Part shown: in pieces, positions 6,946 through 35,380 of the stretch | Layout: every line of letters starts with the position of its first letter | How positions within the stretch are numbered: the stretch's first letter is position 1 | Assembly (NCBI RefSeq): GCF_003991205.1 | Contig: NZ_RXOZ01000001.1 | Coordinates: 1-64,000, forward strand | Origin: Georgenia sp. SYP-B2076 | GTDB taxonomy: Bacteria; Actinomycetota; Actinomycetes; Actinomycetales; Actinomycetaceae | Reading direction: 5' to 3' | Length of the DNA stretch: 64,000 nt | The notes under the pieces: model-generated | The model's database searches: none | What the model saw: only the letters and a program-made list of their open reading frames with translations | Told to the model about the DNA's origin: nothing | Program-made: the position numbers and the translations under genes

Positions 6946-7057
6946 CAGGCACCTCGGGGGTTGGCTAGGGGGGTGAAGGTGGGACGACGGCGCGCCGTCG
7001 GTGGTGCGTCGTCGGGGATCGTCGGGCCGTGCGGGCGCGTCGTCGAGGATCGGGGGG

Positions 7058-8227
7058 TCAGGCCGCGGACGCGGCGACGGCGGGCGCGGCGGCGCTCAGG
7101 CGGCGCAGCTTGGGGACGGGGATCCGGTAGTTGATGGCGACGGCGGTGCCCGACCCGTCCTCCTGGGCCCAGCGCAGGAGCGCCGCGCCGTCGTACGGGT
7201 CGCCGTCGACGAGCTCGGGGGTTCCGGCCAGCGGCAGGAAGCCGCACGCCTTGAGGTTGAGGCCGAACTGCTCGGTCCAGAAGTACTGCTGGAAGTTCAG
7301 CTCCGGGGCGTCGTCCCCGTGGACCAGGGCGAGCGCGGCGATCTTGCTCTGCTCGATGGCGCTGGTCCACAGCGGGACCCGGCGGGGGCCCCGCGCGGTG
7401 GCGAAGGTCGCCACGTCGCCCGCGGCCACGACGTCGGGCCGGACCCGCCCGCGGGTGTCGACCTCGAGCCGACCGTCGGTGAGGAGCCCGCTCGTCGCGA
7501 GCCACTCGAGGTTCGGCACGTCGCCGATCGCGGTGACCACGAGCTCGGCCTCGAGGAGCGAGCCGTCGGCGAGCACCACCGCGGGATGCCCGCCCGCGTC
7601 GCGGACGTCGACCGCCTGGAACGGCGCGATCGTGAGCCCGCGCCCGACGGCGGCGGCGGCGAAGACCTCCGACAGGTAGGGCCCCAGCTGGTGGACGAGG
7701 GGGCGGTCCGGCGTCGCCAGGGTGACCTCGCACCCCGCGGCCAGGCACCCGGAGGCGATCTCCATCCCGAGCGCCCCGCCGCCGACGACGACGACCGACG
7801 GCCTGGTCGCGATCCGGCGCCGCAGCTCGAGGGCGTCGTCGAGGCTGCGCAGCGTCAGCTCGTGGGCGCCGGCACCGTCGCTGCCGAGGCGGCGTGCCCG
7901 CGAGCCCGTGGCGATGACGACGGAGTCGTACGGCAGGTCGGTTCCGTCGTCGAGCACCACGGCCTTCCGGGCGGCCTCGAGGCGGGACGCGCCCACCCCG
8001 AGGATCTCGGTGGCCCCGTGGGTCGGCTCGGGCAGGTGGTGGGAGGACATCTCTTCGCCGAGGTCGAGCAGCGCGGCCTTCGACAGGGCCGGGCGGCTGT
8101 ACGGGGTGTGGCGCTCGTCGCCGACGACGGTGAGCTCGCCGTCGAACCCGGCGGCCCGCAGGGAGTCGCTCGCGGTAAGACCGGCGATACCGTTGCCGAC
8201 GACGACGACGCGCCGGGGGGCCGTCAT
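7058..8227 (-). CDS. Ferredoxin reductase, FAD-dependent (putidaredoxin reductase type)
   Basis: The 389-residue flavoprotein has an FAD-binding GNGIAGLTASDSL at the N-terminus, a second nucleotide site VVVGGGALGMEIASG for NAD(P)H near the middle, and the FAD-contacting AAGDVATF. Its C-terminal domain is of the rubredoxin/putidaredoxin reductase type. It should pass electrons from NAD(P)H to the ferredoxin at 8224-8415, whose stop it overlaps by 4 bases (ATGA), and on to the P450 downstream. Confidence 0.9.
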   Translation of the reverse strand: MTAPRRVVVVGNGIAGLTASDSLRAAGFDGELTVVGDERHTPYSRPALSKAALLDLGEEMSSHHLPEPTHGATEILGVGASRLEAARKAVVLDDGTDLPYDSVVIATGSRARRLGSDGAGAHELTLRSLDDALELRRRIATRPSVVVVGGGALGMEIASGCLAAGCEVTLATPDRPLVHQLGPYLSEVFAAAAVGRGLTIAPFQAVDVRDAGGHPAVVLADGSLLEAELVVTAIGDVPNLEWLATSGLLTDGRLEVDTRGRVRPDVVAAGDVATFATARGPRRVPLWTSAIEQSKIAALALVHGDDAPELNFQQYFWTEQFGLNLKACGFLPLAGTPELVDGDPYDGAALLRWAQEDGSGTAVAINYRIPVPKLRRLSAAAPAVAASAA

Positions 8228-8415
8228 GCCGTCCTCAGCGCCGCGACCGGGCAGACCCGCACGGCGGCCTTCGCGGCGTCGACGTCCGAGGCCTCCTCGA
8301 CGTCCTCGACATCCAGGACGAGCTCGCCGTCGTCGTCCAGGTGCATCAGCCGCGGGGCGGCCTCTTCACACAGGCCGTGGCCCTCGCAGCGCGGGCGGTC
8401 AAGGATGATCTTCAT
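8224..8415 (-). CDS. [3Fe-4S] ferredoxin
   Basis: This 63-residue protein begins MKIILDRPRCEGHGLC and ends with VCPVAALRTA. Cys10, Cys16 and Cys55 (in CP), with His replacing the usual second cysteine, give the CxxHxxC...CP signature of [3Fe-4S] ferredoxins that serve actinobacterial P450s. The acidic middle (DDDGELVLDVEDVEE) suits docking. The frame stays open further upstream, but the ATG at 8415 fits the family length and the family start. It is the first gene of the ferredoxin-reductase-P450 operon. Confidence 0.9.
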   Translation of the reverse strand: MKIILDRPRCEGHGLCEEAAPRLMHLDDDGELVLDVEDVEEASDVDAAKAAVRVCPVAALRTA

Positions 8416-8466
8416 GGTGTCTCTCCGCTGAGGTAGGCGTGGTGGCGGCATTGCCGACCTTGCTTT

Positions 8467-8497
8467 ACACAGAAGTGTGTGGCTTGACACAGTGTCA
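8467..8497. promoter_or_regulatory. Twin dyads in the divergent P450/HtaA promoter region
   Basis: TGACACAGTGTCA (8485-8497) is a 6-base-arm palindrome and ACAC-N4-GTGT (8467-8478) is a second, related dyad. They lie 52 to 82 bases before the ferredoxin start. They are good candidates for the site of the LysR protein at 9193 or another regulator. A TTGACA hexamer (8484-8489) overlaps the first one on the plus strand. Confidence 0.45.
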
Positions 8498-8693
8498 GGC
8501 AAATAACTCCTCGACATGGAGTTCATGCAGATGGTGAATACCCCCCGGTTTGGCGGCACGAGACAGCCGTTGAGCATGCACCCCCCGAATGTGGGTGACC
8601 CGGCGAGATTCGCTTGACGCACGTCGTCGCCGATAGGAGAGTGCTCGCGGGTCCGGGGCCCCGGAACCGTGGACAACCAGCTTGGGAGCGCAC

Positions 8694-9200
8694 GTGGCGA
8701 CGACGCCGGGACTGACCTGGGCGGTCAAGGACAGCCTGCTGTCCTACATCGAGGCGCTCGACGACGGGACGGTCGAGGCCCTCGCGCCCGCGTCACGATC
8801 CGGGGCCGGCTTCCTCTTCCCGTGGGACGAGGGGGGCAGCGGCGACCTCGGGAGCGGCCACCACCTCGGCGCCCCCGACGGCGACCTCGCGTTTCTCGGC
8901 GCCGTCCGGCTCACGGGGCACTGGGGCATGCTCGACGTCGAGCTGCGCGAGCCACGGGTCACCCTCAGCGACGGGACGGGGGCGCTGCTCGTCCGGGAGC
9001 GCGGGTCCCGGGACCCGGGGAAGTGGCTGCCGTTCGCGGATCTCGCCGTCGAGGAGCCGCAGGTGGACGCCGGCGGGGCCACGTTTCTCGCCGCCGCGGC
9101 GTCGCTGACCGGCCACGGGCGCCTGCTCCTCGGCGGGCAGTACGACGCGGGGACGCCCCTCAGCCGGCTGCACATCACGTTCCCCCCGCGCCATGGGTAG
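8694..9200 (+). CDS. HtaA-domain protein
   Basis: The 168-residue protein resembles one HtaA domain: the opening LTWAVKDSLLSYIEALDDG, then a phenylalanine/tryptophan stretch FLFPWDEG, VRLTGHWGMLDVELREPRV, and a late LTGHGRLLLGGQYDAG. In corynebacteria HtaA domains bind heme, but those copies are secreted or anchored. This one has no signal peptide or membrane anchor, so it would be cytoplasmic. The GTG at 8694 is preferred over an upstream TTG at 8682 because GGGAG sits 5 bases before it. It overlaps the LysR gene by 8 bases and diverges from a heme-enzyme operon, which suggests a related job. Confidence 0.7.
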   Translation: MATTPGLTWAVKDSLLSYIEALDDGTVEALAPASRSGAGFLFPWDEGGSGDLGSGHHLGAPDGDLAFLGAVRLTGHWGMLDVELREPRVTLSDGTGALLVRERGSRDPGKWLPFADLAVEEPQVDAGGATFLAAAASLTGHGRLLLGGQYDAGTPLSRLHITFPPRHG

Positions 9201-10170
9201 CACCCTGGACGATGCCGCGCCGGACGCCGAGCTCGCCAGGCTGGCCTCGGTCAACCTCAACCTGCTGGTGCCGCTCCTGGCCCTGCTCGAGGAACGCTCG
9301 GTGACGCGGGCGGCGGCCACGGTCGGCCTCTCGCAGCCCGCCATGAGCCACGCGCTGCGCCGCATGCGGCGCCTGCTCGGCGACGAGCTCATCGTCCGGA
9401 ACGGGGCCGGGATGACCCTCACGCCGCGCGCCGTCGAGCTCGTTCCGCCGCTGCGGCGCGTCCTCAACCAGGCCGCGCAGATCGTGAGCCCCTCCCCCTT
9501 CGATCCCACCGTGGACCGCCGGGACATCACCGTGGCGATGACGACCAGCAAGGCGCTTGTCATCGGCAGCGCCATCGCGCGGCTGATCGCGCACCGCGCA
9601 CCGCACGCCACGCTGCGGCTGCGCACCACGACCATGGGGTCGAGCGCGCAGTTCACCGACGACCGGGCCGACGTGCTGCTGCTCTCCGAGGAGGCCGCGT
9701 CGCCGTACCCGCGTGAGCACCTGTACGACGACCGGTGGGTCGTGATCACCAACTCGGGCGCCCCCCGGGACGCGAGCGCCCTCGAGCTGCTCGCGACGCT
9801 GCCCCACGTCGTCTTCGACGAGCCCGGCCGCTCACGTCCGTACGAGGCGCTGGACGAGCAGAACGTGTCGTACACGGTGCGCGACCGCGTCTCGGACAAC
9901 CTCCTGATCCCCCATCTGGTCTCGGACGCGGGCGGGGTCGCGGTGCACCGATACCGGATCACCACCGTCATGAGCAGCTACCTCGACCTGCGGATCGAGG
10001 AGTTCCCGTTCCCCGTCCCCAGCCTGGGCATCGACATGGTGTGGAACCCGTGGCTCGCCGACGAGGTGTTAAAGGCCTGGCTGCGCGGGATCCTCATCGA
10101 GGCGGCGGCGTCGCTGCAGGGCCGCCGTCAGGCAGGGGGCTCGAAGTGGCGCCGGCACCGGGCCTGGTAG
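9193..10170 (+). CDS. LysR-family transcriptional regulator
   Basis: The 325-residue regulator has an N-terminal winged helix-turn-helix with SVTRAAATVGLSQPAMSHAL at about residues 35-54 and a LysR substrate-binding domain after a linker helix. The helix region LNLLVPLLALLEE resembles the NodD/LinR branch, which often controls catabolic genes. The start overlaps the HtaA gene. It probably controls the divergent P450 operon and its own transcript, since LysR proteins commonly do so. The last 43 bases overlap the tdk gene on the other strand. Confidence 0.88.
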   Translation: MGSTLDDAAPDAELARLASVNLNLLVPLLALLEERSVTRAAATVGLSQPAMSHALRRMRRLLGDELIVRNGAGMTLTPRAVELVPPLRRVLNQAAQIVSPSPFDPTVDRRDITVAMTTSKALVIGSAIARLIAHRAPHATLRLRTTTMGSSAQFTDDRADVLLLSEEAASPYPREHLYDDRWVVITNSGAPRDASALELLATLPHVVFDEPGRSRPYEALDEQNVSYTVRDRVSDNLLIPHLVSDAGGVAVHRYRITTVMSSYLDLRIEEFPFPVPSLGIDMVWNPWLADEVLKAWLRGILIEAAASLQGRRQAGGSKWRRHRAW

Positions 10171-10706
10171 GCCTCGATCCCGCCGACGTGCTCGGCGGCC
10201 GGGGCGCGGGCGTCGCCGCCGTCGCCGCGGCGGGTCCGCTGGTGGAACGCGGCGTCCTCCCCGCAGACGGCGCACACCGCCGTCAGCTTGGTCACGTCCT
10301 CCGCGAGCGCCATCAGCGAGGGCAGCGGCTCGAACGGGCGGCCGTCGAACGTCACGCACAGCCCGGCGACGACGACGGTCGTGCCCGCGAGCACGAGCTC
10401 GCCGACCGCCGGGATGAGCTCCGCGCCGAAGAACTGCGCCTCGTCGATCGCCAGCAGGTCCAGCCCGCGGCCCCGAGCCAGCTCCACCAGCGACCGGACG
10501 TCCGGCGCCGTCCGGGACGGCACGCTCAGCCCCGAGTGCGAGGCCACCTGGCCCGCGCCGTGCCGCTCGTCGAGCGCGTGGTTGACCACCTCGACGGCGA
10601 GCCCGGCGAGCTGCGCGCGGCGCACCCGCCGCACCAGCTCCTCGGACTTACCGGCGAACATGGGGCCGCACACCACCTGCAGCCGACCCCGCCCGTTCCT
10701 GCGCAT
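10128..10706 (-). CDS. tdk: Thymidine kinase
   Basis: The 192-residue protein has the Walker A motif CGPMFAGKS (residues 13-21), the DEAQFF motif, and a C-terminal zinc lasso with CAVCG and a later Cys/His pair, all typical of type II thymidine kinases, which phosphorylate thymidine for salvage. The ATG at 10706 gives the usual short N-terminus before LQVVCGPMF. The reading frame continues upstream through the tandem repeat at 10724-10864 only because the repeat unit is a multiple of three. Its 3' end overlaps lysR by 43 bases in antisense. Confidence 0.92.
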   Translation of the reverse strand: MRRNGRGRLQVVCGPMFAGKSEELVRRVRRAQLAGLAVEVVNHALDERHGAGQVASHSGLSVPSRTAPDVRSLVELARGRGLDLLAIDEAQFFGAELIPAVGELVLAGTTVVVAGLCVTFDGRPFEPLPSLMALAEDVTKLTAVCAVCGEDAAFHQRTRRGDGGDARAPAAEHVGGIEAYQARCRRHFEPPA

Positions 10707-22442: not shown

Positions 22443-23561
22443 CTATAGACCGTCGGCCAATTCCAGCACTCGCCTAGCAGACGCATTCATTCCAACCGTT
22501 GGATTGATGTCGCCTCGAACCTGCTCTGGCAGATTGAGCCGATAGCGCACCGAGTCGGTGTCGACGTTCGGCTTTGCCCGGACATCGTCGCCTCTGAGCA
22601 CGTGGATTTGGTCATCCGCCATGTCGTAGCACCGAACGAATGCGCTCCTGAACGGCCGCTGGAAAACGGCACTGTCGGCCATCGTCGTGTGGTCGTAGCC
22701 GATCTCTGCCGATGAGCCGTACTCGGCGATGCGTCGCAACAGCTCGGCGATGACCGGCTCGGCGCTGACCTCCAGGGCCTGTCTTGTTCGGTCGACTATC
22801 GCAGCGACGAGTCGCGGAAGACTCGTCGTGTTCGAGGGGTCTGCTCCTACCCCGGCCCACTGGATGCCGACGCTCAGTAGGAGAAGCGTTGACTCGGGGG
22901 CGCCGTCGACACCGTGACCGACCTCAACTTGATGCACACCCTGAATCAAGTGTGACGACGCACTGCGAGTGGTCGTCTTAACCTCGACCCCCACACCGCC
23001 AAACTGGAGATCACGCGCAGTCTCGCGGTACCCCTTCCACGCATCAATAATCGCTGCGACCTTGTTCGGCGGCGCCGCACGCACGAGGGCTTCGAGCAGG
23101 AGCAGCTCGCCAATCAGGCCGAGGATGGCGCGGTCAGCGATCCGAAGCCGCTGGATCGCGAGCTCAATGACCGGCTCGGCCTTCCAGAACGCCCGGCCAG
23201 GGTTTTCCGAGGCGCCGTTCCGAAGCAGTTCAGTGCACAGGAACGCTGCGACCTGATCGAAGTGCCCTGCAGCGGGTAGCAGCAACCGGCTCGCGGAGAG
23301 TGCGTCCTCCTTACCCTCTCGCCACCACAACTGATGCTCGAGGTTCTCGCGAACGATCTTGGACCTCGGCTCGATGGGTGGCCCCGCGAGGAAGATTTCG
23401 ATCCGTCCCTCCGGACTCCTCGCAATCCCGAGCGCCCCATCCCCGTCGCACCAGGTGATAATTCGGTCGTTCGCTGACCGCGGCCGCTCGAGGCGGGCTA
23501 TGAGCTCTAGGTGCGCTTCATACGAGCCTAGATCGGGCGTCATGGTCGGGCTGGCCTTCAT
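22443..23561 (-). CDS. PD-(D/E)XK motif protein, DUF4420 type
   Basis: The 372-residue protein has a nuclease-like core: Glu152 in GELLLLEAL, Asp184 in ARDLQFGGVG and Glu193-Val-Lys195 in VEVKTTTRSASSHL, the E...D...ExK order of PD-(D/E)XK enzymes. Proteins of this DUF4420 family are found beside Z1 ATPases in predicted restriction-like systems. Its ATG overlaps the Z1 stop by 4 bases, so the two are probably made together and may form a complex in which this is the DNA-cutting subunit. GC is lower than in flanking host genes. No transmembrane segment. Confidence 0.82.
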   Translation of the reverse strand: MKASPTMTPDLGSYEAHLELIARLERPRSANDRIITWCDGDGALGIARSPEGRIEIFLAGPPIEPRSKIVRENLEHQLWWREGKEDALSASRLLLPAAGHFDQVAAFLCTELLRNGASENPGRAFWKAEPVIELAIQRLRIADRAILGLIGELLLLEALVRAAPPNKVAAIIDAWKGYRETARDLQFGGVGVEVKTTTRSASSHLIQGVHQVEVGHGVDGAPESTLLLLSVGIQWAGVGADPSNTTSLPRLVAAIVDRTRQALEVSAEPVIAELLRRIAEYGSSAEIGYDHTTMADSAVFQRPFRSAFVRCYDMADDQIHVLRGDDVRAKPNVDTDSVRYRLNLPEQVRGDINPTVGMNASARRVLELADGL

Positions 23562-26413
23562 CGCGGTCCTCGTGCAGCAAACTGGTCAGGGCCTCCGAGT
23601 GGGACGGCGAGGCCAAGGGCAGTGGTGGGATGGAGGCCCTCACCTCGCTCGATGACGTGGAAGAGGATGAGTCCAGGGGCGCCGGCAGGGCGCCAGGGAG
23701 CCTCTCCGGCGGTGAATTTCGGGGGCACCTGCTCGTGGGCGTGGTAATCGAAGAATGAATCTCCGAGGTAGGGGTCACTACCTGAGCCGGGGTTACGGCT
23801 GCCCCAGGTAGCAGCGAGCTGTCCGTCTACCACATCGCGCATCATCGGTCGCACGTCGAACGGCAGCTCACCGAGGAGCCCCTCCGTGATCGTCGAGCCA
23901 GAGCCGTAGCGAATACCGATGTAGAACTTCGGCTGCTCGCTTTGCTTCTTGGATAGATCCACCATCGACCACGGGGTCCGAGGGTCGTCCGTCGCCACAA
24001 GGCCCCGGGCGTGCCGGGACAGGCTTGCGTGCCACAGGCGGAGATAAGCACCGAGACCGTATGGGCAGTCACTCCGTACTTCGGACGCGGGCTCACCTTC
24101 GTCAGGCTCCGGCGGCCGATAGAGCGGCAGCAGTCTCTCGCCGTCTGACGCAGCGTCGAGGCCGATGTGAGCTTCGAGGGCGGCCCATCGCGAAGCCTGC
24201 CAACCCTCGCGACCCGGCCGGTAATTGTCATACCGCAGGCCATCGAGGAGCTCAGCAGCCTCGGAGAGGGAGAGCGGCTCGTCGAGGATGCGCCCACGAG
24301 GGCGGTCGTTGACCACCACGTCGTGGGACGCGCGGTTGGCAAACGCGACGGCGAGAAGCCGCGTATTCGGGTCTTCGTTCTTGCCGTCGTTCATGAGCCG
24401 CACGAACGGCGCCGCCCCGGGAGAGAGGGGCACGTTGCTGACGTTCGTCAACTTGCCGGTAGCAATGAAATCGCGGCCTTGAAGCACCCTCGGATCAGGC
24501 GCCTCTCCGAGTTGCTCGTTCATGAGCTTTACAACGTCGCGCCGCAGGGCTTCGTCGGACTCGTGGTACGCACGGAACAGGTCGAGCTGCTCACTTGGTA
24601 AGAAAACTCGACAGAGCTCAAGGTGTGGTCCGCGGTACCCGAACCAGCGCTGCATCTGCATCTGGGTGTCGGCGTACGGGTCGTCGCTGTGGCGGAGGAA
24701 CAGCGTGGTCGTGAGTCCTTCGAGCGTCAGGCCGCGGGACATCACGTTTCCCGAGATGAAGATTGTCGACAGGTCGCACGGAGCAAGCCAAGTACCGTCG
24801 TCCTCCTGCGGCTCAAACGCAGGGCGGTCGTCCGCCCGAGGATCGCTGTTCACGATCGAGAGGCGCGTCGCGGGGATCACCTCGTGGAGGAGCAGGTCCC
24901 TTACGGCCGGCCACATGGACCGATCGGGGACAACAGGTTCGTGCGGCAGGTCGAACGCTCCGCGCACGGCCTGCGCCGACCGGCGGTAGTGATCAAGCCA
25001 CGCCGCCCACGGCTCCTCGTCCTGGAGCACCATCGCGCTCAGCGCGTCGACTGGCAAAGACCGATCGCCCGCGTCCAGGCGGGCGACCGCTTGGTCTCGA
25101 TCGAGACCTCCCGCCCACGCAAGAATTCCCGCAGCCGCATCGAAGTGGTCTTGGATAGCGGCTGAGGGGTGGAAGAGCATGGAATGAGGTAGCGGTGAAC
25201 GCGCGGCCGCTTCTTGCCTTGAGGCGAAGTAGGTTGACCGCGCTACGGAGGGTAAGAGCCGGCCGTCATCCCTCCAGAGGCGGATGGCCCCGGCCACCAG
25301 GAATGCGCGCACCGACTCCGCGATGCCCACGTCAGGCTGACCGTCCGTTGCGAGGCACAATGGCGCCTCCTTGACTCGCCGGTAGAACACCTCACCTCCC
25401 GTGTAGAAGGACCGAAGTCCTCCTGGCTCACGGAACGTCGTCGAGCGAGGCTCCACACCCCCTTGGTCGAAAGGCGTGCGCAGCGAAACCACGAAATCCT
25501 TCGGTGCGAGTGGGTTGTAGTCCGCCTGGAGGAAGTTGGCCTGCGGTGTCGCGGTGTACGCGATGTAGGTGACGTAAAGATTGGGTGAGGCCGATGTGCC
25601 GTCGTGCGGGCGCGTCTCCCAAAGGTCGACGATCGACCGAGGAACTTGCTTGAGGTCCGCGAACGCCGGGTCGAGACCACTCTCTGCCCGCGCATCGAGG
25701 ATCGATCCGTCGTCGGCCTCGTCATCGAGCACAACAAGGTGGAACGGCCGTGCTGCGCTGTTGATGGCAGGGATGAGCTGCCGGTGCAGCGTTTCGGCCA
25801 GGGCCTGGAGGTGGTGGACGTTCTTCATTACGACGGCGATTAGCGGCCGCCGTTGCCTGAGAGCGCGCCGTGCCTGTTGACCGTTGAACGCATAGAGGCG
25901 AGAGAGCGGCACGTCGTCGCCGCCGTCGTCGAGCACGGCTGACGGGCTCGGCAGCAACAGCCGCCGCCGCTCTCGATCGAGGTCGGCACCGTGGCTGTCG
26001 AGCTGGGTGCGCAGCCGCTCAAATGTCTGCTTCCACAGAGAAACCCGCGTACCGGCGAGGACCACGACGGCATCGACGCCCTCGTCGAGGCTAAGCGCGG
26101 ACACGCCCAGCATCGAGGCCGTCTTCCCGGACTGGATCGACCCCATAACGAGGCCGCGCCGAACCCGCGAGGCTGGCCAGGACGCGTCGCCCGCAGGCCC
26201 CGTCCCGAGCACCCCCATGCGCAAGATGTACTTGCTATCCGTCTGGATAACGGTCTTGGAAGTCTCAGACATCGACGAGGCGTCGAGGGCTTCCCGGTAG
26301 CCGTCCCACCATGAGCCCACATTGGCACCGACGCCATCGACCGGAGCGAGGTGCACCCTCTCTGTGCGAGGCGCGCTCACGAAGTGGCCTTCACTCAGCT
26401 CGGACATTTCCAT
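23558..26413 (-). CDS. Z1-domain ATPase (superfamily 2-like helicase)
   Basis: The 951-residue protein carries a complete helicase-like ATPase core: Walker A GSIQSGKT (91-98), the Walker B DDEAD at about 230-234, TATPQA (287-292) as motif III, SGNVMSRGLTLEGL (554-567) as motif V and TQMQMQRWFGYR (583-594) as motif VI, all signatures of Z1 proteins. About 300 further residues follow with no motif that I recognise. Z1 ATPases occur with cytosine methyltransferases and Vsr in predicted defence operons, which is the case here. It overlaps the DUF262 gene by 23 bases and the DUF4420 gene by 4. Confidence 0.88.
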   Translation of the reverse strand: MEMSELSEGHFVSAPRTERVHLAPVDGVGANVGSWWDGYREALDASSMSETSKTVIQTDSKYILRMGVLGTGPAGDASWPASRVRRGLVMGSIQSGKTASMLGVSALSLDEGVDAVVVLAGTRVSLWKQTFERLRTQLDSHGADLDRERRRLLLPSPSAVLDDGGDDVPLSRLYAFNGQQARRALRQRRPLIAVVMKNVHHLQALAETLHRQLIPAINSAARPFHLVVLDDEADDGSILDARAESGLDPAFADLKQVPRSIVDLWETRPHDGTSASPNLYVTYIAYTATPQANFLQADYNPLAPKDFVVSLRTPFDQGGVEPRSTTFREPGGLRSFYTGGEVFYRRVKEAPLCLATDGQPDVGIAESVRAFLVAGAIRLWRDDGRLLPSVARSTYFASRQEAAARSPLPHSMLFHPSAAIQDHFDAAAGILAWAGGLDRDQAVARLDAGDRSLPVDALSAMVLQDEEPWAAWLDHYRRSAQAVRGAFDLPHEPVVPDRSMWPAVRDLLLHEVIPATRLSIVNSDPRADDRPAFEPQEDDGTWLAPCDLSTIFISGNVMSRGLTLEGLTTTLFLRHSDDPYADTQMQMQRWFGYRGPHLELCRVFLPSEQLDLFRAYHESDEALRRDVVKLMNEQLGEAPDPRVLQGRDFIATGKLTNVSNVPLSPGAAPFVRLMNDGKNEDPNTRLLAVAFANRASHDVVVNDRPRGRILDEPLSLSEAAELLDGLRYDNYRPGREGWQASRWAALEAHIGLDAASDGERLLPLYRPPEPDEGEPASEVRSDCPYGLGAYLRLWHASLSRHARGLVATDDPRTPWSMVDLSKKQSEQPKFYIGIRYGSGSTITEGLLGELPFDVRPMMRDVVDGQLAATWGSRNPGSGSDPYLGDSFFDYHAHEQVPPKFTAGEAPWRPAGAPGLILFHVIERGEGLHPTTALGLAVPLGGPDQFAARGPR

Positions 26414-28307
26414 TTACCGCCCTGAGCGTCTCTACGCCGGAGTAGCCGAAACGCTCCGTCATCGCGGCGGACGCCGCATCACGGTCTACTCCGAGCTCAT
26501 CGGCGATGAGCAGGGCGATCTTGGCGATGTACTCCCACTGTGTCGCTGTCTGCGTCTTTGCCGGGCGCCGCCACTCCTTGGTGGCGGTCTTCTTTCGCAG
26601 GGCTGGCGCCGCGGCCTCTAGGCGGTCCTCGGTCTCCTCGCCAAGCACGCTAGCGCCGATCACAACGCCGAGAAGGCTGCCGACCAGCTGCAGCTCCTGC
26701 CACTTCGCACCCTGTTTGGTGTCCTTGAACTTCGGGTCCCACGCCTCGTCGACGGCCGCATGTGCGCGCATGCCTTGGAGCATCAGGAGGAAGGCGTCCC
26801 TGATTGTCGCTTCATCACGCAAGGGGTCCTTGGGATCGTTCTCGATGCGTTGAAGGAGCGAGTCGATCTGCCGGGCCGTCGACTGGTGCTTCGGTTGGCC
26901 CTTGTTGTCGAGCGAGTCGAGCAGGAGGAGCGAGGAGAGCCACGAGAGCACCTTCGTCCTCCTGTATCGGCTCGTGCCGAAGCCGTACTCGGTCAGGATC
27001 TCACTGATCTCCCCGAGGTCGGGCCATGCGCGGACGAGGAAGGGTGCGACGTCGTTCAGCGCGGCACTGTCGCCTGCGGTTACAAGAAGGCCCCGCATGA
27101 AGTCGATGTTGTGGTACAGGGCGTTGCGGATCTCCTCCGCGTTCAGGTGCTTGCCCTGCTTGTTGTAGAGGTTGAAGACTTCGTGGATCTGGCGTCGCGA
27201 CGCCTTGGAGTACTCGATGACGGGAATCTTGTACTCGGAAACGCGCTCGAAAACCTGGCGGATTTCTACGCGATCGTCCGCGATCTCGATCGGACGCCGC
27301 CGAATCTCGGTGTAGTACCTGCCCTGGAGATCCGCCAGGTCACCCTCGAGCGGCTTAGCGTTCGTCCGAAGCTTGAACGGGAAGTAGTACTCCCGCTCCT
27401 TCGACGCCGTGAGTTGCTCACCACGGAGGTTCCTCCACGCCTTGCGGAAGGCTGGATAGTCCGACCTGAAGAGGGAGACAAGGTCCGTCCCCTCGTGCTC
27501 AGCATTCGCTTCCTTGACGACCTCGAGAGCGCGCGGGTGCCGGCCGATGAACCGCAGGATCGCCGTGAGCCGCTGCTTACCGTCAACCACCTCGAAAGGC
27601 GCCTCGAACTGATCTTGGGGCTTCAAGACGATGACGGACGGCAAGGGGATCCCGCGAAGGATCGACTCGATCAGCATCTGCGAGTCCTTGGTGGGCCAGA
27701 CGTCGCCGCGCTGGTAGGACGGGCTGAGGTTTAGCTTTCCCTCTTCCGCCTTGTCACTGAATTCTTGGATTGGCCAGATCTGCGCCTTAGCGGTGACAGG
27801 ACCACTGCTTTCCTCCTCCTCCTCGGGCGCCTCCTCCCATGCCTCGACCCATCGACCTGTGGCTGCCCCGATAGCGCCCCCCTCAGCCTCGAGGTCCTCG
27901 ACGAACACCTTCTGCAGCTCCACCGCGCGCTCAGCACGCTCCCGCAGCCGCTCGAGGCCGGCGTCCGACAGGTGCACGTGCCCATCGACCGAATCGACCG
28001 CCTCATCCGGCTGCTCAAAGCCCAGTCCTCGGGCCAGCGCCCTCAGGAAATCTTCGGATTTGGTCAACTCAAGGGGCTCGCGGAGCCGGAGCCATCCCTG
28101 CACGGTGGCGACCGAGCTCATCCAAGCCGGCGAGGCGAAGTCGACGTCCTCGGGGCGGAAGCCGCTGCCCAGAGGCTCGAACTCGGATGGCACCTCAACC
28201 GGTTCTGAGAGCAGCGCAAGCTGCTCGGCGACCGCCATCTCGAGATCCGCCCGCTCGCTGTCTTGTGCTTCATCCACCGTGGACTCAATCAAGTCGTCGC
28301 TCCTCAT
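26391..28307 (-). CDS. DUF262-domain protein
   Basis: The 638-residue protein has a DUF262 (ParB-like nucleotidase) domain from about residue 180: SYQRGDVWPT at 197-206 and VDGKQRLTAI at 241-250, the family's DGQQR-type motif. The first 170 residues are acidic and helical with an EEEEE run, and the C-terminal 250 residues are helical. DUF262 is the nucleotide-binding half of GmrSD-type modified-DNA restriction enzymes, but the usual HNH (DUF1524) partner domain is not visible here. It begins the three-gene operon with Z1 and DUF4420 and may sense or hydrolyse nucleotides to switch the system. Confidence 0.82.
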   Translation of the reverse strand: MRSDDLIESTVDEAQDSERADLEMAVAEQLALLSEPVEVPSEFEPLGSGFRPEDVDFASPAWMSSVATVQGWLRLREPLELTKSEDFLRALARGLGFEQPDEAVDSVDGHVHLSDAGLERLRERAERAVELQKVFVEDLEAEGGAIGAATGRWVEAWEEAPEEEEESSGPVTAKAQIWPIQEFSDKAEEGKLNLSPSYQRGDVWPTKDSQMLIESILRGIPLPSVIVLKPQDQFEAPFEVVDGKQRLTAILRFIGRHPRALEVVKEANAEHEGTDLVSLFRSDYPAFRKAWRNLRGEQLTASKEREYYFPFKLRTNAKPLEGDLADLQGRYYTEIRRRPIEIADDRVEIRQVFERVSEYKIPVIEYSKASRRQIHEVFNLYNKQGKHLNAEEIRNALYHNIDFMRGLLVTAGDSAALNDVAPFLVRAWPDLGEISEILTEYGFGTSRYRRTKVLSWLSSLLLLDSLDNKGQPKHQSTARQIDSLLQRIENDPKDPLRDEATIRDAFLLMLQGMRAHAAVDEAWDPKFKDTKQGAKWQELQLVGSLLGVVIGASVLGEETEDRLEAAAPALRKKTATKEWRRPAKTQTATQWEYIAKIALLIADELGVDRDAASAAMTERFGYSGVETLRAVNGNVRAE

Positions 28308-28799
28308 CAGCCCGGATGGTCACTGGGTGCAGCCATCTTCGTGCAAGCGCGGGCCAGTCTATGCGTTCGGACGACATGTGACGTTAAGTGGCTGGTGCAC
28401 TCCTCGCTGGAAGTTCAGTGTTGGTGTCCACGGAGCGCGCTTGCAGCTTACTAAGCGGCGCAAGTCCCGCCGCCGGGTCCTCGGCACCCCCAGTGGAGCT
28501 TCTTGGGCGCGGAGCACGTCAGCCATGTCGCAATGTATGACCACTCGCTCCATGCGCCCAGTTGCCGGCGAGCTCGGGTGCGCAGGCGGCGCCCTAGTCA
28601 AGCCACATCCGAGCGGGAACTTGTCACGGAGGGCAACATTCCGCGCCCGGTCGGTCCCGCCAATGCGCGGCCTTGCGCAAGTTCCGGCTAGAGCGTTTGT
28701 GCATCACAGACGGAACCGGATAAATCGCACAGCGTTCTGCAGCCCCTTACGCCTCATTCGCCGCCAGACCGGATCGACACAGTGGCGTAGCCTGGTCAC
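28308..28799. promoter_or_regulatory. Divergent promoter region inside the island
   Basis: No gene is supported here. The stretch separates the DUF262 operon (minus) from the gene at 28800 (plus). A TAGCCT hexamer at 28788-28793 ends 6 bases before the GTG at 28800, the spacing expected of a -10 box for a leaderless transcript. On the minus strand TAGACT (complement of 28355-28360) is a candidate -10 for the DUF262 operon. Confidence 0.4.
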
Positions 28800-29573
28800 G
28801 TGACTCAGGACACTCTTTTCAGCAATGGTTGTGTTGGATCTGTTCCGACCAGCAGCCCCGCAGGCCTCGCGGACGTCCCACCGGGCCACTTACAACCCGC
28901 CCGAACATTCGCGCGCGAGTTCTTCGCTGCCCTAAAAAGCAACTCGTCCATCCAAGCCGAACTTACCGCAGCCATCCAAGAGTGTTTCCGCCGCTACGAC
29001 ACCGGCCCCTTTGAGAACCGATTTATTGTCGGCGCCGTAGTGGAACAAATTCTCGGAGCTACAGCACGTTCGTTGGGATTTGATGTCGAGAATTCTGGCG
29101 CACGCCGCCAAGCGTACGATCTCGAACTTTCGCCAGGGTACGGAATTAGCATTAAGTACACGTCATCAGTCGGTCGGAGCGCACGGGTACGTTTAACCAA
29201 CAGCCAAGGTGCCGTAGGAGAATGGAACACCGGCACCATCTTCGTACTTGCTGGCATAGGCATCGGGTACGCGGACGTCTATCTGACGCCCGGAGCAACC
29301 ATTCCTGCGGGCGATGAGAAAAGTCTTGACGTCGCCCTTCGGCCCTTGCTTCATTTTTGGGGCGTCGAGCCCATAAAATCAAAAGCGCCGGAGCCGGAAT
29401 GGCTTGCAGTCGTCCCCAACACCGAGCCCCGCATGGGTTACTTCCTGCCAATCGCGGTCCCTGCACGGGCAACTGTCCGTTCGCCACGTCTTGCCGGTGA
29501 TCCCATCGCTCTGGATATTCTCCAGAGCGGGAGGTCTCAGACTCTTCTCGCGCACTTCAAGTGGTCGATCTAG
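28800..29573 (+). CDS. Unrecognised island protein, nuclease-like
   Basis: I do not recognise this 257-residue protein. A segment around RRQAYDLELSPGYGISIKYT places Asp107 and Lys119 as in a PD-(D/E)XK core with the middle acidic residue lost (SIK instead of ExK), and Glu82 in VVEQIL could supply the helix glutamate. The rest is mixed alpha/beta. The DNA is clearly AT-rich for this genome: bases 29041-29100 hold only 29 G or C of 60. The GTG start has no ribosome-binding site but a -10-like box 6 bases upstream. Lying between the two halves of a restriction-like island, it could be a type II-like endonuclease or a DNA-binding subunit. Confidence 0.55.
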   Translation: MTQDTLFSNGCVGSVPTSSPAGLADVPPGHLQPARTFAREFFAALKSNSSIQAELTAAIQECFRRYDTGPFENRFIVGAVVEQILGATARSLGFDVENSGARRQAYDLELSPGYGISIKYTSSVGRSARVRLTNSQGAVGEWNTGTIFVLAGIGIGYADVYLTPGATIPAGDEKSLDVALRPLLHFWGVEPIKSKAPEPEWLAVVPNTEPRMGYFLPIAVPARATVRSPRLAGDPIALDILQSGRSQTLLAHFKWSI

Positions 29574-29906
29574 TAGGAGGGACGGTCGGCTTCAGTCACG
29601 AACGGCACTTCGACTAATCGGCGGGGCTCCGCACTGCATGGGGGTCGCCGCCGAACAAGCGGCCAATCGTGGCCCTCCAGACGGGGAAGACGAGACCTCA
29701 CTGACGTTGCACGACGGCGCCTACAATCTTTCCAACGAGCCGCCAGGCACCGCCGGACCGCCCCTTGGCCACACTGACGTGGCGGTGGCCGCGGCTTGCT
29801 CGCCGTGAAGCCAGGGATGTGCACCGGTCCACGCCGGTGTGGTGTGGTGAGTGAACCCACCCACGTCCACACCCGGCGCGTGGCGGTCCTTCCCGCGATC
29901 TGCTGA
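29574..29906. other. Gap between convergent island genes, with hairpins
   Basis: There is no supported gene. Two weak hairpins are visible: GCCAC-N6-GTGGC (29768-29783) and CCGGTGTGG pairing with CCACACC(C)GG (29834-29886). The second lies just past the stop of the minus-strand DUF3883 gene and could be its terminator. Confidence 0.35.
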
Positions 29907-31223
29907 CTACGTGGTTGGCCAGACTCTGTAGCTGGCTACGGCACGCCTACCTTCGGTGATCTGGGCGCGGGTGATGATGTTGACAACGTAGTCCTTGGGG
30001 GAGAGCACGCTCGTCACTGCGATGACGATGAACGTCTCGTCCGTCTGCGCACGCCACCACTCTTTGGGAGTGATGTTAAATACCGTCTGCCCACCCTGGA
30101 TGCCCTTGACCTCGACATGCAGGACGCGGCCGTCCTTCTCGTACTCGAGGTCATAGCCCACGCCGTCCCGTTGCCTGTCGGCCCGGAAGTCCCATCCACC
30201 CTTCTTCATGAAGGCCTGCGCGATCTCGACGGCGCGCTTCTCTGCGAGACTGTCGGCGCGCGGGTCTCGCGTTGGGCGAGGTTCATCGGCCACGTTGCGG
30301 GCGTTCTCCAGCCGCCCGTCTTCGTCCTCGGCGTACTCCGGCAGCTCAAGCTCCGTGCCTCCAAGGCGGCCGAGCGGAAGGGCGTCTGGGAGGGCAGCGT
30401 CAAAGTCAACGTCCACGACGCCGGTTTCGGTGACAGGGTTCTCGGAGATGACGCGCTGAACCGCGACCAGCGCGCCTGGGTCGGCCGCAGCGAGCGGATG
30501 GTCTGGTGGCGTGCTCCCGGTCCCGGCGGTGACGATGGCCGCGTAAGTCTCCCAGGCGATCTCGGTGATGGTGTGCTGGGGGTTTTGCCCGTCGATGTGG
30601 ACGTCTTCCCGGGGGACGGGGACTTCGAAGGGCACGTAGTCGGCGAGCTGGGCGTCCCATGGGCCCTCCCAGCCAGGTGCGATGTACTCGACCGTGGCAT
30701 GCGCAACGAGCGCGTCGGGGTTCTCTGTCTTGGAGGTGCTGCAGATGATGACTCGCGAGCCTGGCCCTGCGTCGTTTAGTGCCTGCCGGCCGGTGCCTTC
30801 GTTGTCATAGCGATAGTGCCTCTCGTCGGCCTCGTGCCCAGTTCCCACAGGGCCATCTGTGCGGTTGAGGATGAAGCATCGGGGGACGCCTGTCAGGGCG
30901 CACCAGATCCGTGAGTAGGCCCGCGCGGTGACGGTTCCTCCGCCCTTGGGGGCGGCTTCGCTCGTGTCCCAGAAGGGGTCGTAGGTCAGCCCGAGTGTCT
31001 CGAGCACTTGCTCTGCCTTTCGGTACGTGTCGCGGCCGCCTGTCGGCGCACCGGTGCGAGCCTGTTGGATGGCGTCGAGGAACGCGCCTTCGACAGACCC
31101 GCCCGTAGACACCTTCGGCATGTCTATGTCGAGGGTGTCGGTGATGCGCTTTGGAAGGTCCGTCTTCTTCGTGGGACGGTTCACCTTGTGCCCACGGATC
31201 ATCGGCGTGTGCTGCACGGACAT
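29907..31223 (-). CDS. DUF3883-domain protein with uncharacterised N-terminal region
   Basis: The 438-residue protein ends in a DUF3883 domain, a PD-(D/E)XK-like fold: GYDLEYEKDGRVLHVEVKG holds Asp358 and Glu371-Val-Lys373, followed by the usual NITPKEWWRA helix. The middle (about 95-200), with YSRIWCALTG, HYRYDNEG and GSRVIICSTSK, loosely resembles PUA/EVE-type modified-base readers; that is inference. Such a layout, reader plus nuclease-like domain, would suit a protein that checks DNA modification. It diverges from the methyltransferase gene at 31460. Confidence 0.72.
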   Translation of the reverse strand: MSVQHTPMIRGHKVNRPTKKTDLPKRITDTLDIDMPKVSTGGSVEGAFLDAIQQARTGAPTGGRDTYRKAEQVLETLGLTYDPFWDTSEAAPKGGGTVTARAYSRIWCALTGVPRCFILNRTDGPVGTGHEADERHYRYDNEGTGRQALNDAGPGSRVIICSTSKTENPDALVAHATVEYIAPGWEGPWDAQLADYVPFEVPVPREDVHIDGQNPQHTITEIAWETYAAIVTAGTGSTPPDHPLAAADPGALVAVQRVISENPVTETGVVDVDFDAALPDALPLGRLGGTELELPEYAEDEDGRLENARNVADEPRPTRDPRADSLAEKRAVEIAQAFMKKGGWDFRADRQRDGVGYDLEYEKDGRVLHVEVKGIQGGQTVFNITPKEWWRAQTDETFIVIAVTSVLSPKDYVVNIITRAQITEGRRAVASYRVWPTT

Positions 31224-31423
31224 GCGTTCCTGCCTACTTGCTCGTATGGACGAGGCTGCTGGCTGCCTGTCGGTGATGGGGTATGACGTGCCGCATGCTC
31301 AGCATGTCGGTGCCAGGTGCGAGAGTTGCGGACTGAAGCAACCGCACGTGCGCGTCTGCGCTGGACCTTGGGCTGGGAGCCATGGCTAGAACTACCGGTA
31401 CGGAATCGAAGACGTCAACACGC

Positions 31424-31459
31424 TTGGAGATAGCTGAGAGCTCAGCTAAGCTCGTGAGC
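31424..31459 (+). promoter_or_regulatory. Methyltransferase promoter with an operator in its spacer
   Basis: TTGGAG (31424-31429) and TAAGCT (31447-31452) form a -35/-10 pair with a 17-base spacer. The start codon at 31460 lies 8 bases after the -10, so the transcript is probably leaderless. The perfect dyad TAGCTGAG-AG-CTCAGCTA (31431-31448) fills the spacer and touches the -10. A protein bound there would shut the promoter. Confidence 0.65.
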
Positions 31460-32905
31460 ATGACCACCGCCTCGGCGCCCTTCACATTTGTTGACCTGTT
31501 CGCAGGTATCGGCGGCTTCCACTCGGTGCTGAGCCATGCGGGGGGCCGGTGCGTCTACGTCTCGGAAATTGACGACGCGGCCCGCAGCACCTACGTCCAT
31601 AACTGGGTGACGCCGCTACCGGAGAAGATGCGTCCGACTATCAACACAGACATCAACCTGGCTACCCCGGATGAGGGTCTTGACCCCGACTTTCCTGAAA
31701 ATTTTGGCGTCCTTGCGGCAGGTTTTCCCTGTCAGCCGTTCTCGAAGTCAGGCCACCAGCACGGGATGGAGGAGGCTCGCGGAACCCTGTTCTGGAACAT
31801 CGCCCGGATCCTCGAGGAGCGCCACCCACCGGTAATCCTGCTTGAGAACGTGCGCAACCTGGTAGGGCCGCGGCACAGGCACGAGTGGGACGTGATCATC
31901 GATACGCTGCGCGAGCTCGGGTACCGCGTGTCCTCTAAGCCGACGGTCTTCTCCCCACACTTCCTGCCGCCATCGATGGGCGGGACACCACAGGTCCGCG
32001 AGCGTGTCTTCATCCTGGGCACCTACATCGGACCAGAGCGCGTCAAGGAGGAGATCAAGACACGGGGCGACGTCCCCCCGACCCTCACCCGCGGGCCGGT
32101 CAACGGCTGGGACCCCCGGAACTGGGACGTTGAGTGGGTCCTCGACGACGACGCGGACATCGAGAACATCGACCGATACAGGCTCACCACCGCCGAGACC
32201 AAGCCCGAGACCGAGTGGATCAACGTCTGGGACGACCTCGTCCAAAGGATGTGGGCGTACCGAGGTGAGCGGCTGCCTGGGTTCCCGCTGTGGGCCGACG
32301 CCTGGGTCCCGGAGAGCTCGCTCAACCCGAACGAACTCGACCTCCTTCCCCCGTGGAAGGCCGACTTCCTGATCAAGAACGCCCGGTTCTACGACCAGCA
32401 CCGCGACATCATCACGGCCTGGCGTACCGCCAACCCCAACTTCAACCAGTTCCCTCCCTCACGACGCAAGCTCGAGTGGCAGGCGCAGGACGCCACGTCG
32501 TTATGGGAGACCGTGATGCACTTCCGGCCTTCAGGTATCCGCGCCAAGGCGCCCACGTACGTGCCCGCCCTCGTGGCCATCACCCAGACATCAATCGTCG
32601 GAAAGCGGCGGCGGAAGATCACCCCACACGAGGCGGCCAGGCTCCAGGGCCTCCCGCGGTGGTTCGACTTCGCGAACGCCCGCGAGGCGCTGTCCTACAA
32701 ACAGGTAGGCAATGGTGTCGCCGCCGGCGCCGCCTGGTACGTCTTCCGCGCCCACGTGGAGCGCGACCAAGACGACCTCCCCAGAGCCCTCGTCCGGGCG
32801 GTCCTGGACGCCCCGCTGAACCCAACGGGTGATGCTTTGTCGCCTGAGGCGTTCGCCTTCGAGGCCGAGTTGGACCGGGAGAGCCAGGAGCTGCTGGTGG
32901 GATGA
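31460..32905 (+). CDS. C5-cytosine DNA methyltransferase
   Basis: The 481-residue enzyme has the C5-methyltransferase motifs in order: FVDLFAGIGGF (I, about 10-20), GFPCQPFSKSG (IV) with the catalytic Cys91, LLENVRN (VI), QVRERVFILG (VIII), and YKQVGNGVAAGAAW (X). The target-recognition region between VIII and IX is long and of unknown specificity. The ATG at 31460 is chosen over one at 31382 because the promoter and palindrome lie between them. It is followed 7 bases later by vsr, the usual pairing for Dcm-like enzymes whose 5-methylcytosine can deaminate to T. Confidence 0.93.
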   Translation: MTTASAPFTFVDLFAGIGGFHSVLSHAGGRCVYVSEIDDAARSTYVHNWVTPLPEKMRPTINTDINLATPDEGLDPDFPENFGVLAAGFPCQPFSKSGHQHGMEEARGTLFWNIARILEERHPPVILLENVRNLVGPRHRHEWDVIIDTLRELGYRVSSKPTVFSPHFLPPSMGGTPQVRERVFILGTYIGPERVKEEIKTRGDVPPTLTRGPVNGWDPRNWDVEWVLDDDADIENIDRYRLTTAETKPETEWINVWDDLVQRMWAYRGERLPGFPLWADAWVPESSLNPNELDLLPPWKADFLIKNARFYDQHRDIITAWRTANPNFNQFPPSRRKLEWQAQDATSLWETVMHFRPSGIRAKAPTYVPALVAITQTSIVGKRRRKITPHEAARLQGLPRWFDFANAREALSYKQVGNGVAAGAAWYVFRAHVERDQDDLPRALVRAVLDAPLNPTGDALSPEAFAFEAELDRESQELLVG

Positions 32906-32912
32906 TTTCGTT

Positions 32913-33341
32913 GTGGCCGGCGAGAGGTGGGTCAGCACCACGGAGGGGCACCACCTCGCCGGCCGCCGGAAGGCCGGCACTGCGCCGGAGCTCAAGCTCA
33001 GGCGGGCGATCCATGCGGCCGGGGGTAGATTCCGCGTCCAGCGGCGCCTCGCACCCGGCTGCACCCCTGACATCGTCCTGCCCAGGCGCCGGCTAGCAGT
33101 TTTCGTCGACGGGTGCTTCTGGCACGGCTGTCCTGAGCATGGGCGCAAGAAGGCCTGGACCGGTCCCAACGCGGATCTGTGGGCCCAGAAGATGCGACGG
33201 AACCAGGAGCGCGATGCCCACTCGACAGCCATCGCCGAGGCGCTGGGCTGGACCGTGATGCGGTTCTGGGAATGCCAGATCAATTCCGACCCAGCTATAG
33301 TCGCGGGCCAAATTCTGGCCGCCGAACCCTTTAGACACTAA
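32913..33341 (+). CDS. vsr: Very short patch repair endonuclease (Vsr)
   Basis: The 142-residue protein has the Vsr signature: the N-terminal APELKLRRAIHAAGGRFRVQ helix, then TPDIVLPRRRLAVFVDGCFW with Asp53, and WHGCPEHG with His71 and Cys73. Vsr nicks at T:G mismatches left when 5-methylcytosine deaminates, protecting the host from mutations at methylated sites. The GTG at 32913 leaves 7 bases after the methyltransferase stop, so the genes are co-transcribed. It marks the right end of the lower-GC island. Confidence 0.92.
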   Translation: MAGERWVSTTEGHHLAGRRKAGTAPELKLRRAIHAAGGRFRVQRRLAPGCTPDIVLPRRRLAVFVDGCFWHGCPEHGRKKAWTGPNADLWAQKMRRNQERDAHSTAIAEALGWTVMRFWECQINSDPAIVAGQILAAEPFRH

Positions 33342-33616: not shown

Positions 33617-35323
33617 CTACTTTCCGGGACCTGCGCCGCCGCCCTTGCCCGGACCCTTGTTGGTCTTGTGCTGTCCCTTCCCGGTCGCGCTCTTGCCGGC
33701 TTCCTTGTTTGCTCCTGGTGCGTCCTTCGAAGCGCCGGAACCGCGATTGGAGGGGTCGTTGGGGAGCGGCTGCTCGGCGGTGGGAACCGGGTCCATCTCC
33801 GCCGGTGTCGTCGCGGGTGCGGCCGGAGCCGGGGCCACTTCCGCCGGTGTCAGCGCGGGCGCGGCCGGGGCCGGTGTCTCGCTCGGCGCGGGGGGCGGGG
33901 CGACAGAAATCGGTGTGGCTCCGGGTGAGGACTCGGTCGGAGCCGGTTCCTGGGTCACCGCCTGCTTCGGGACCACGCTCGTGACGGCCCTCTCCGCAGG
34001 CCCGTGATCGCTCATGGCATTGACGGAGACCAGGGTCACTGCGACGGCGGCGAGCCCGGCCACCACGACCGGCACTCGCCTCTTCGAGCGCCGGGCGTCC
34101 GTGGGCGGCACCCACGCGGGCACCCCGGGATCATCCGGCTCCTCGGCCGGCAAAATGCTTGGGGTGGCCGCCGTCGTGGTCGTGGCGGTCGGCGGGAGCA
34201 CGAAGGTGGCAGCCGTCGGGGCAGGTCCGAGCCCCGACCCGGGGGCGTCGGTCGTCGCTGTGCCCGCCGTCGGCAGGCCCGGATAGGCGGTCGCGGCCGT
34301 CATCGGTGAGACGGCATGCGGGGCCGCTGTGATGGGCGAGAGGGCGTGGGACGCGGCCGTCATCGGCGAGACGGGGTGCCGGGCCGCAGTCGGCGCCCCC
34401 GAAACCGCGTCAGGAATCACGGTCACCGAGCCGACGAACCCGGTTGCCGCGCCGGTCCCGGCCGTCGCGGCGGCCATGGCACCGACCGCGGCCGGCAGCC
34501 CGGCCCCGAAGCGCTCCGTTAGCTCACCGAGCACCTCCTGGACCTCGGTCGCGGACGGCCGCGCGTCCGGGTCCTTGGCGAGCAGCCCGGCCACGAGCCG
34601 GTCGAGCTCGTCGGGCGCGTCCGGGCAAAACTTCTTCAGCCGCGGCGCCTCGATGTACGCGTGCTGATGGAGGATCGCGACGGGCACCTCGCCGGTGAAC
34701 GGCGGCTGGCCGGCGACCAGCGTGGTAAGCAGGCAGCCGAAGGCGTACATGTCCGTGCTGCGCGTAACGCTCTCGGCGCGCGCCTGCTCCGGCGCCATGT
34801 ACTCCGCGGTGCCGAGCGTGGTCCCGGGGGCGGTCAGCGACGACGCGGACTGGTACTCGAAGGCGGCGATCCCGAAGTCGACGACGGTGACCTTGTCGCC
34901 GTCGACCAGGATGTTCGCCGGCTTGACGTCCCGGTGCACGATGCCCGCGGCGTGGGCGGCCGTGAGCGCGCCGGCGACCCGGCCCGCGATCCGGAGCGCC
35001 TCGTCCACCCGCAGCGGGCCGTCCTGCAGCACCGCGGCGAGATCCCGGCCGCGGAGCCGCTCCATGACGATGTAGGCGATATCCCCGTCGACTCCGGCGT
35101 CGTGCACGGTGACGATGTCGGGATGCTCGAGGGCCGCGGTCGCCACGGCCTCGCGGCGCAGCCGGTCCCCGAGCGTCGGGTCGCTGACTGCGCCGACGTC
35201 GACGACCTTGACGGCCACCCGCCGCCCCAGGACCAGGTCGATCCCCCGCCACACCTCGGCCATCCCGCCGCGGCCGAGCCGGCGGTCCAGCTCGTAGCGG
35301 TCGGCGAGAATGGTGGGGGGCAC
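33617..35323 (-). CDS. Membrane-anchored Ser/Thr protein kinase
   Basis: The protein has an N-terminal Hanks-type kinase domain: LGRGGMAEVW, AVKVVDVGAV, HRDVKPANILV with the catalytic Asp, VVDFGIAAF, GTAEYMAPEQ and a complete C-lobe to about residue 270. Then come a Pro/Ala/Thr linker containing three 10-residue repeats (SPMTAASHAL type), one transmembrane helix (VPVVVAGLAAVAVTLVSVNA), and a Pro/Ala-rich extracytoplasmic tail ending in a basic Lys/Gly stretch. No PASTA domain is present. The GTG start at 35323 fits the family; an ATG at 35359 is possible. It follows the SNF2 gene on the same strand. Confidence 0.88.
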   Translation of the reverse strand: MPPTILADRYELDRRLGRGGMAEVWRGIDLVLGRRVAVKVVDVGAVSDPTLGDRLRREAVATAALEHPDIVTVHDAGVDGDIAYIVMERLRGRDLAAVLQDGPLRVDEALRIAGRVAGALTAAHAAGIVHRDVKPANILVDGDKVTVVDFGIAAFEYQSASSLTAPGTTLGTAEYMAPEQARAESVTRSTDMYAFGCLLTTLVAGQPPFTGEVPVAILHQHAYIEAPRLKKFCPDAPDELDRLVAGLLAKDPDARPSATEVQEVLGELTERFGAGLPAAVGAMAAATAGTGAATGFVGSVTVIPDAVSGAPTAARHPVSPMTAASHALSPITAAPHAVSPMTAATAYPGLPTAGTATTDAPGSGLGPAPTAATFVLPPTATTTTAATPSILPAEEPDDPGVPAWVPPTDARRSKRRVPVVVAGLAAVAVTLVSVNAMSDHGPAERAVTSVVPKQAVTQEPAPTESSPGATPISVAPPPAPSETPAPAAPALTPAEVAPAPAAPATTPAEMDPVPTAEQPLPNDPSNRGSGASKDAPGANKEAGKSATGKGQHKTNKGPGKGGGAGPGK

Positions 35324-35380
35324 GCTGGCGAGTATGTCCGAGGCCAGACATAACGGCACGCCGGGGCGGGAATAGTCCCC

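Follow-up and report, generated by a model that had tools for sequence, protein, structure and literature searches.

A probable bacterial DNA-defence island that appears to encode a recurrent three-protein machine with a ParB-type NTPase in the position of a MutL-type ATPase

MZA systems, as described by Gao in 2020, are reportedly composed of mzaABCDE. The seven-gene island (genes A to G) considered here lies in a 64,000-nucleotide stretch of Georgenia sp. SYP-B2076 (contig NZ_RXOZ01000001.1, positions 1 to 64,000; hereafter the window) and looks like a bacterial DNA-defence island encoding a recurrent three-protein machine, from genes C, B, and A, in which a ParB-type NTPase occupies the position of a MutL-type ATPase. 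Compared with MZA, a DUF262 protein replaces the GHKL subunit MzaB, AIPR is absent, and the island scores far below the MZA cut-offs, with 24.6 bits against a cut-off of 420 bits for the DUF4420 protein MzaD. Identity with MZA was rejected on these scores and on the missing subunits, and it is hardly credible that an ordinary MZA system has lost its GHKL and AIPR genes, or keeps them elsewhere, and carries DUF262 as a passenger, a reading that was already disfavoured.

Table 1. Features of the island, in window coordinates (aa, amino acids).
Feature	Position	Strand	Length	Description
Gene A	22443..23561	-	372 aa	DUF4420 PD-(D/E)XK nuclease-like subunit; Pfam match 22707-23135
Gene B	23558..26413	-		Pfam PF10593, E 1e-27
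Gene C	26391..28307	-	638 aa	DUF262/GmrSD_N ParB-fold NTPase-like subunit; GmrSD_N match 27114-27749
Gene D	28800..29573	+	257 aa	Orphan protein; no Pfam match over cut-off
Gene E	29907..31223	-	438 aa	N-terminal ND, middle region, C-terminal NOV_C/DUF3883 PD-(D/E)XK-like domain at 30006-30245
ND	30894..31169	-	~86 positions	Domain in gene E, without Pfam family
Gene F	31382..32905	+	507 aa	C5-cytosine DNA methyltransferase, DruM2-like; Pfam E 1e-64
Gene G	32829..33341	+	170 aa	Vsr mismatch endonuclease, overlapping gene F; Pfam E 6e-18

The initial annotation had recognized a defence-like gene cluster at 22443-33341, which our analysis confirmed as real, and had proposed that its combination of genes may be a new variant. 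This interpretation held in part. For gene B, 78 relatives were recovered, and the core operon recurs in several phyla. Genes D and E were ruled out as core subunits because neither has a homologue in the 78 loci. An alignment of 22 sequences revealed conservation of the gene B motifs GxxQSGKT, DDE(A/S)DD, TATP, and QMQMQRWFGYR, including the Walker A/B-like motifs and the stretch DTQMQMQRWFG. The reported lack of a GHKL ATPase and an AIPR protein was also borne out, as Pfam detected neither among the seven island proteins, and profiles seeded on classical loci (only two seeds for AIPR) detected neither in the window nor beside the core in the 78 loci; the same profiles gave two distant GHKL matches, in L050 and L063. 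Most machines related to the three-protein core seem to carry a MutL-type ATPase. Separately, a pair of genes encoding proteins of ~310 and ~380 aa recurs near the core in five loci (L026, at 6966-8983, L039, L044, L061, and L068), and the L026 pair belongs to no Pfam family.

Gene C displays the DUF262 motifs YQR (residues 198-200), DGKQR (242-246, with the middle Q replaced by K), and FNLYN (378-382), and thus shares the QR, DG(Q/K)QR, and FxxxN motifs that excerpted descriptions give for GmrSD, BrxU, and SspE. It differs from the proteins in those excerpts in its neighbours, a motor and a separate nuclease, and in lacking any Pfam match to the DUF1524 HNH nuclease domain at E up to 1; its C-terminal part is all-helical in the predicted model. 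PADLOC models matched gene C over the DUF262 domain only, the best being NsnA (88.6 bits, residues 169-399), and no NCBIfam model matched it. Excerpts of PMC12137116 and PMC10952713 describe DUF262 proteins of GmrSD, BrxU, SspE, and GrwAB as responding to modified DNA, and BrxU was the top, though weak, fold match of gene C. Both observations would suit a type IV-like, modification-dependent restriction system in which DUF262 senses 5-methylcytosine or another phage base modification and gene F does not provide classical self-protection. However, the missing DUF1524 match speaks against this alternative, as does the C5 methyltransferase found near the core in 73 of the 78 loci, which is expected of restriction-modification and would be odd were 5-methylcytosine the target; we consider it improbable.

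The motifs GFPCQPF and ENV were read in the gene F translation, and we take them to be the catalytic motifs of a DNA methyltransferase. Gene G matched NCBIfam TIGR00632 with 100.5 bits (cut-off, 97.85).

The C-terminal domain of gene E matched Pfam PF13020 (E 7e-11), and its residues D358, E371, and K373 are shared with the single full-length relative, L192 (47%). The idea that gene E is a mere hitchhiker was dropped once the domain ND was found. Defined by an iterated profile covering 128 loci and the window, ND has no relatives in Pfam families or among PDB sequences, and its distribution tracks F-like methyltransferases. We propose that ND, which occurs on differing proteins across bacteria, is a target-recognition domain and likely a partner of the island's DNA-marking enzyme. 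In L027, for instance, it is joined to DUF262 in one protein. It is a small domain whose DNA specificity is directly testable, and if it reads the site modified by its methyltransferase, it would constitute a recognition module portable between restriction enzymes. In L186, a DndB-like protein (9184-10605) bears ND near its C-terminus and adjoins a 904-aa gene without Pfam family; in L187 (8115-12868), genes for an HpaII-type restriction enzyme and a C5 methyltransferase adjoin an ND-bearing gene, together with a helicase gene of the GIY-YIG/Schlafen type. In the Demequina loci (cluster 34), the gene divergent from the methyltransferase was considered a nuclease, an idea dropped, and by eye it reads as oxidoreductase-like. 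The middle region of gene E (window 30246-30890, residues about 112-326) is partly conserved with L192, belongs to no family, and by eye recalls EVE/PUA-like readers of modified bases.

Gene D has no homologue in the 78 core loci, 50 census loci, 7 ND loci, plasmids, or viral contigs; among 396 genomes it matched two, namely itself and one at E 8.5e-4. A PD-(D/E)XK-like fold (E82, D107, K119) is possible as judged by eye only, and the structure model was unusable (predicted local distance difference test, 35). Adjoining the island, a Ser/Thr kinase gene (window 33617-35359) has a host-like G+C content of 0.737 and no DNA match beside the SNF2-type gene in the compared stretches of eight genus-mates.

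Among other described systems, CglI and NgoAVII, in the excerpts of PMC4267653 and PMC5737866, possess a PLD nuclease with a B3-like DNA-binding domain and lack DUF262 and DUF4420; Pfam found no such nuclease in the seven island proteins. PADLOC matched no other Druantia protein among the products of genes A-E and G (only island proteins were scanned), whereas gene F resembles DruM2 of Druantia type II, at 773.6 bits. We suggest that GHKL/MORC and DUF262/ParB, two large families of defence ATPases, are alternatives within one machine. The third type of MORC/paraMORC restriction neighbourhood, as presented in excerpts of Iyer et al. 2008 (PMC2292703), was discovered via GHKL proteins, of which the island has none, but shares with it a superfamily II (SFII) helicase with the DThhQXuRhFG motif, a restriction endonuclease (RE)-fold protein, a cytosine methyltransferase, and Vsr.
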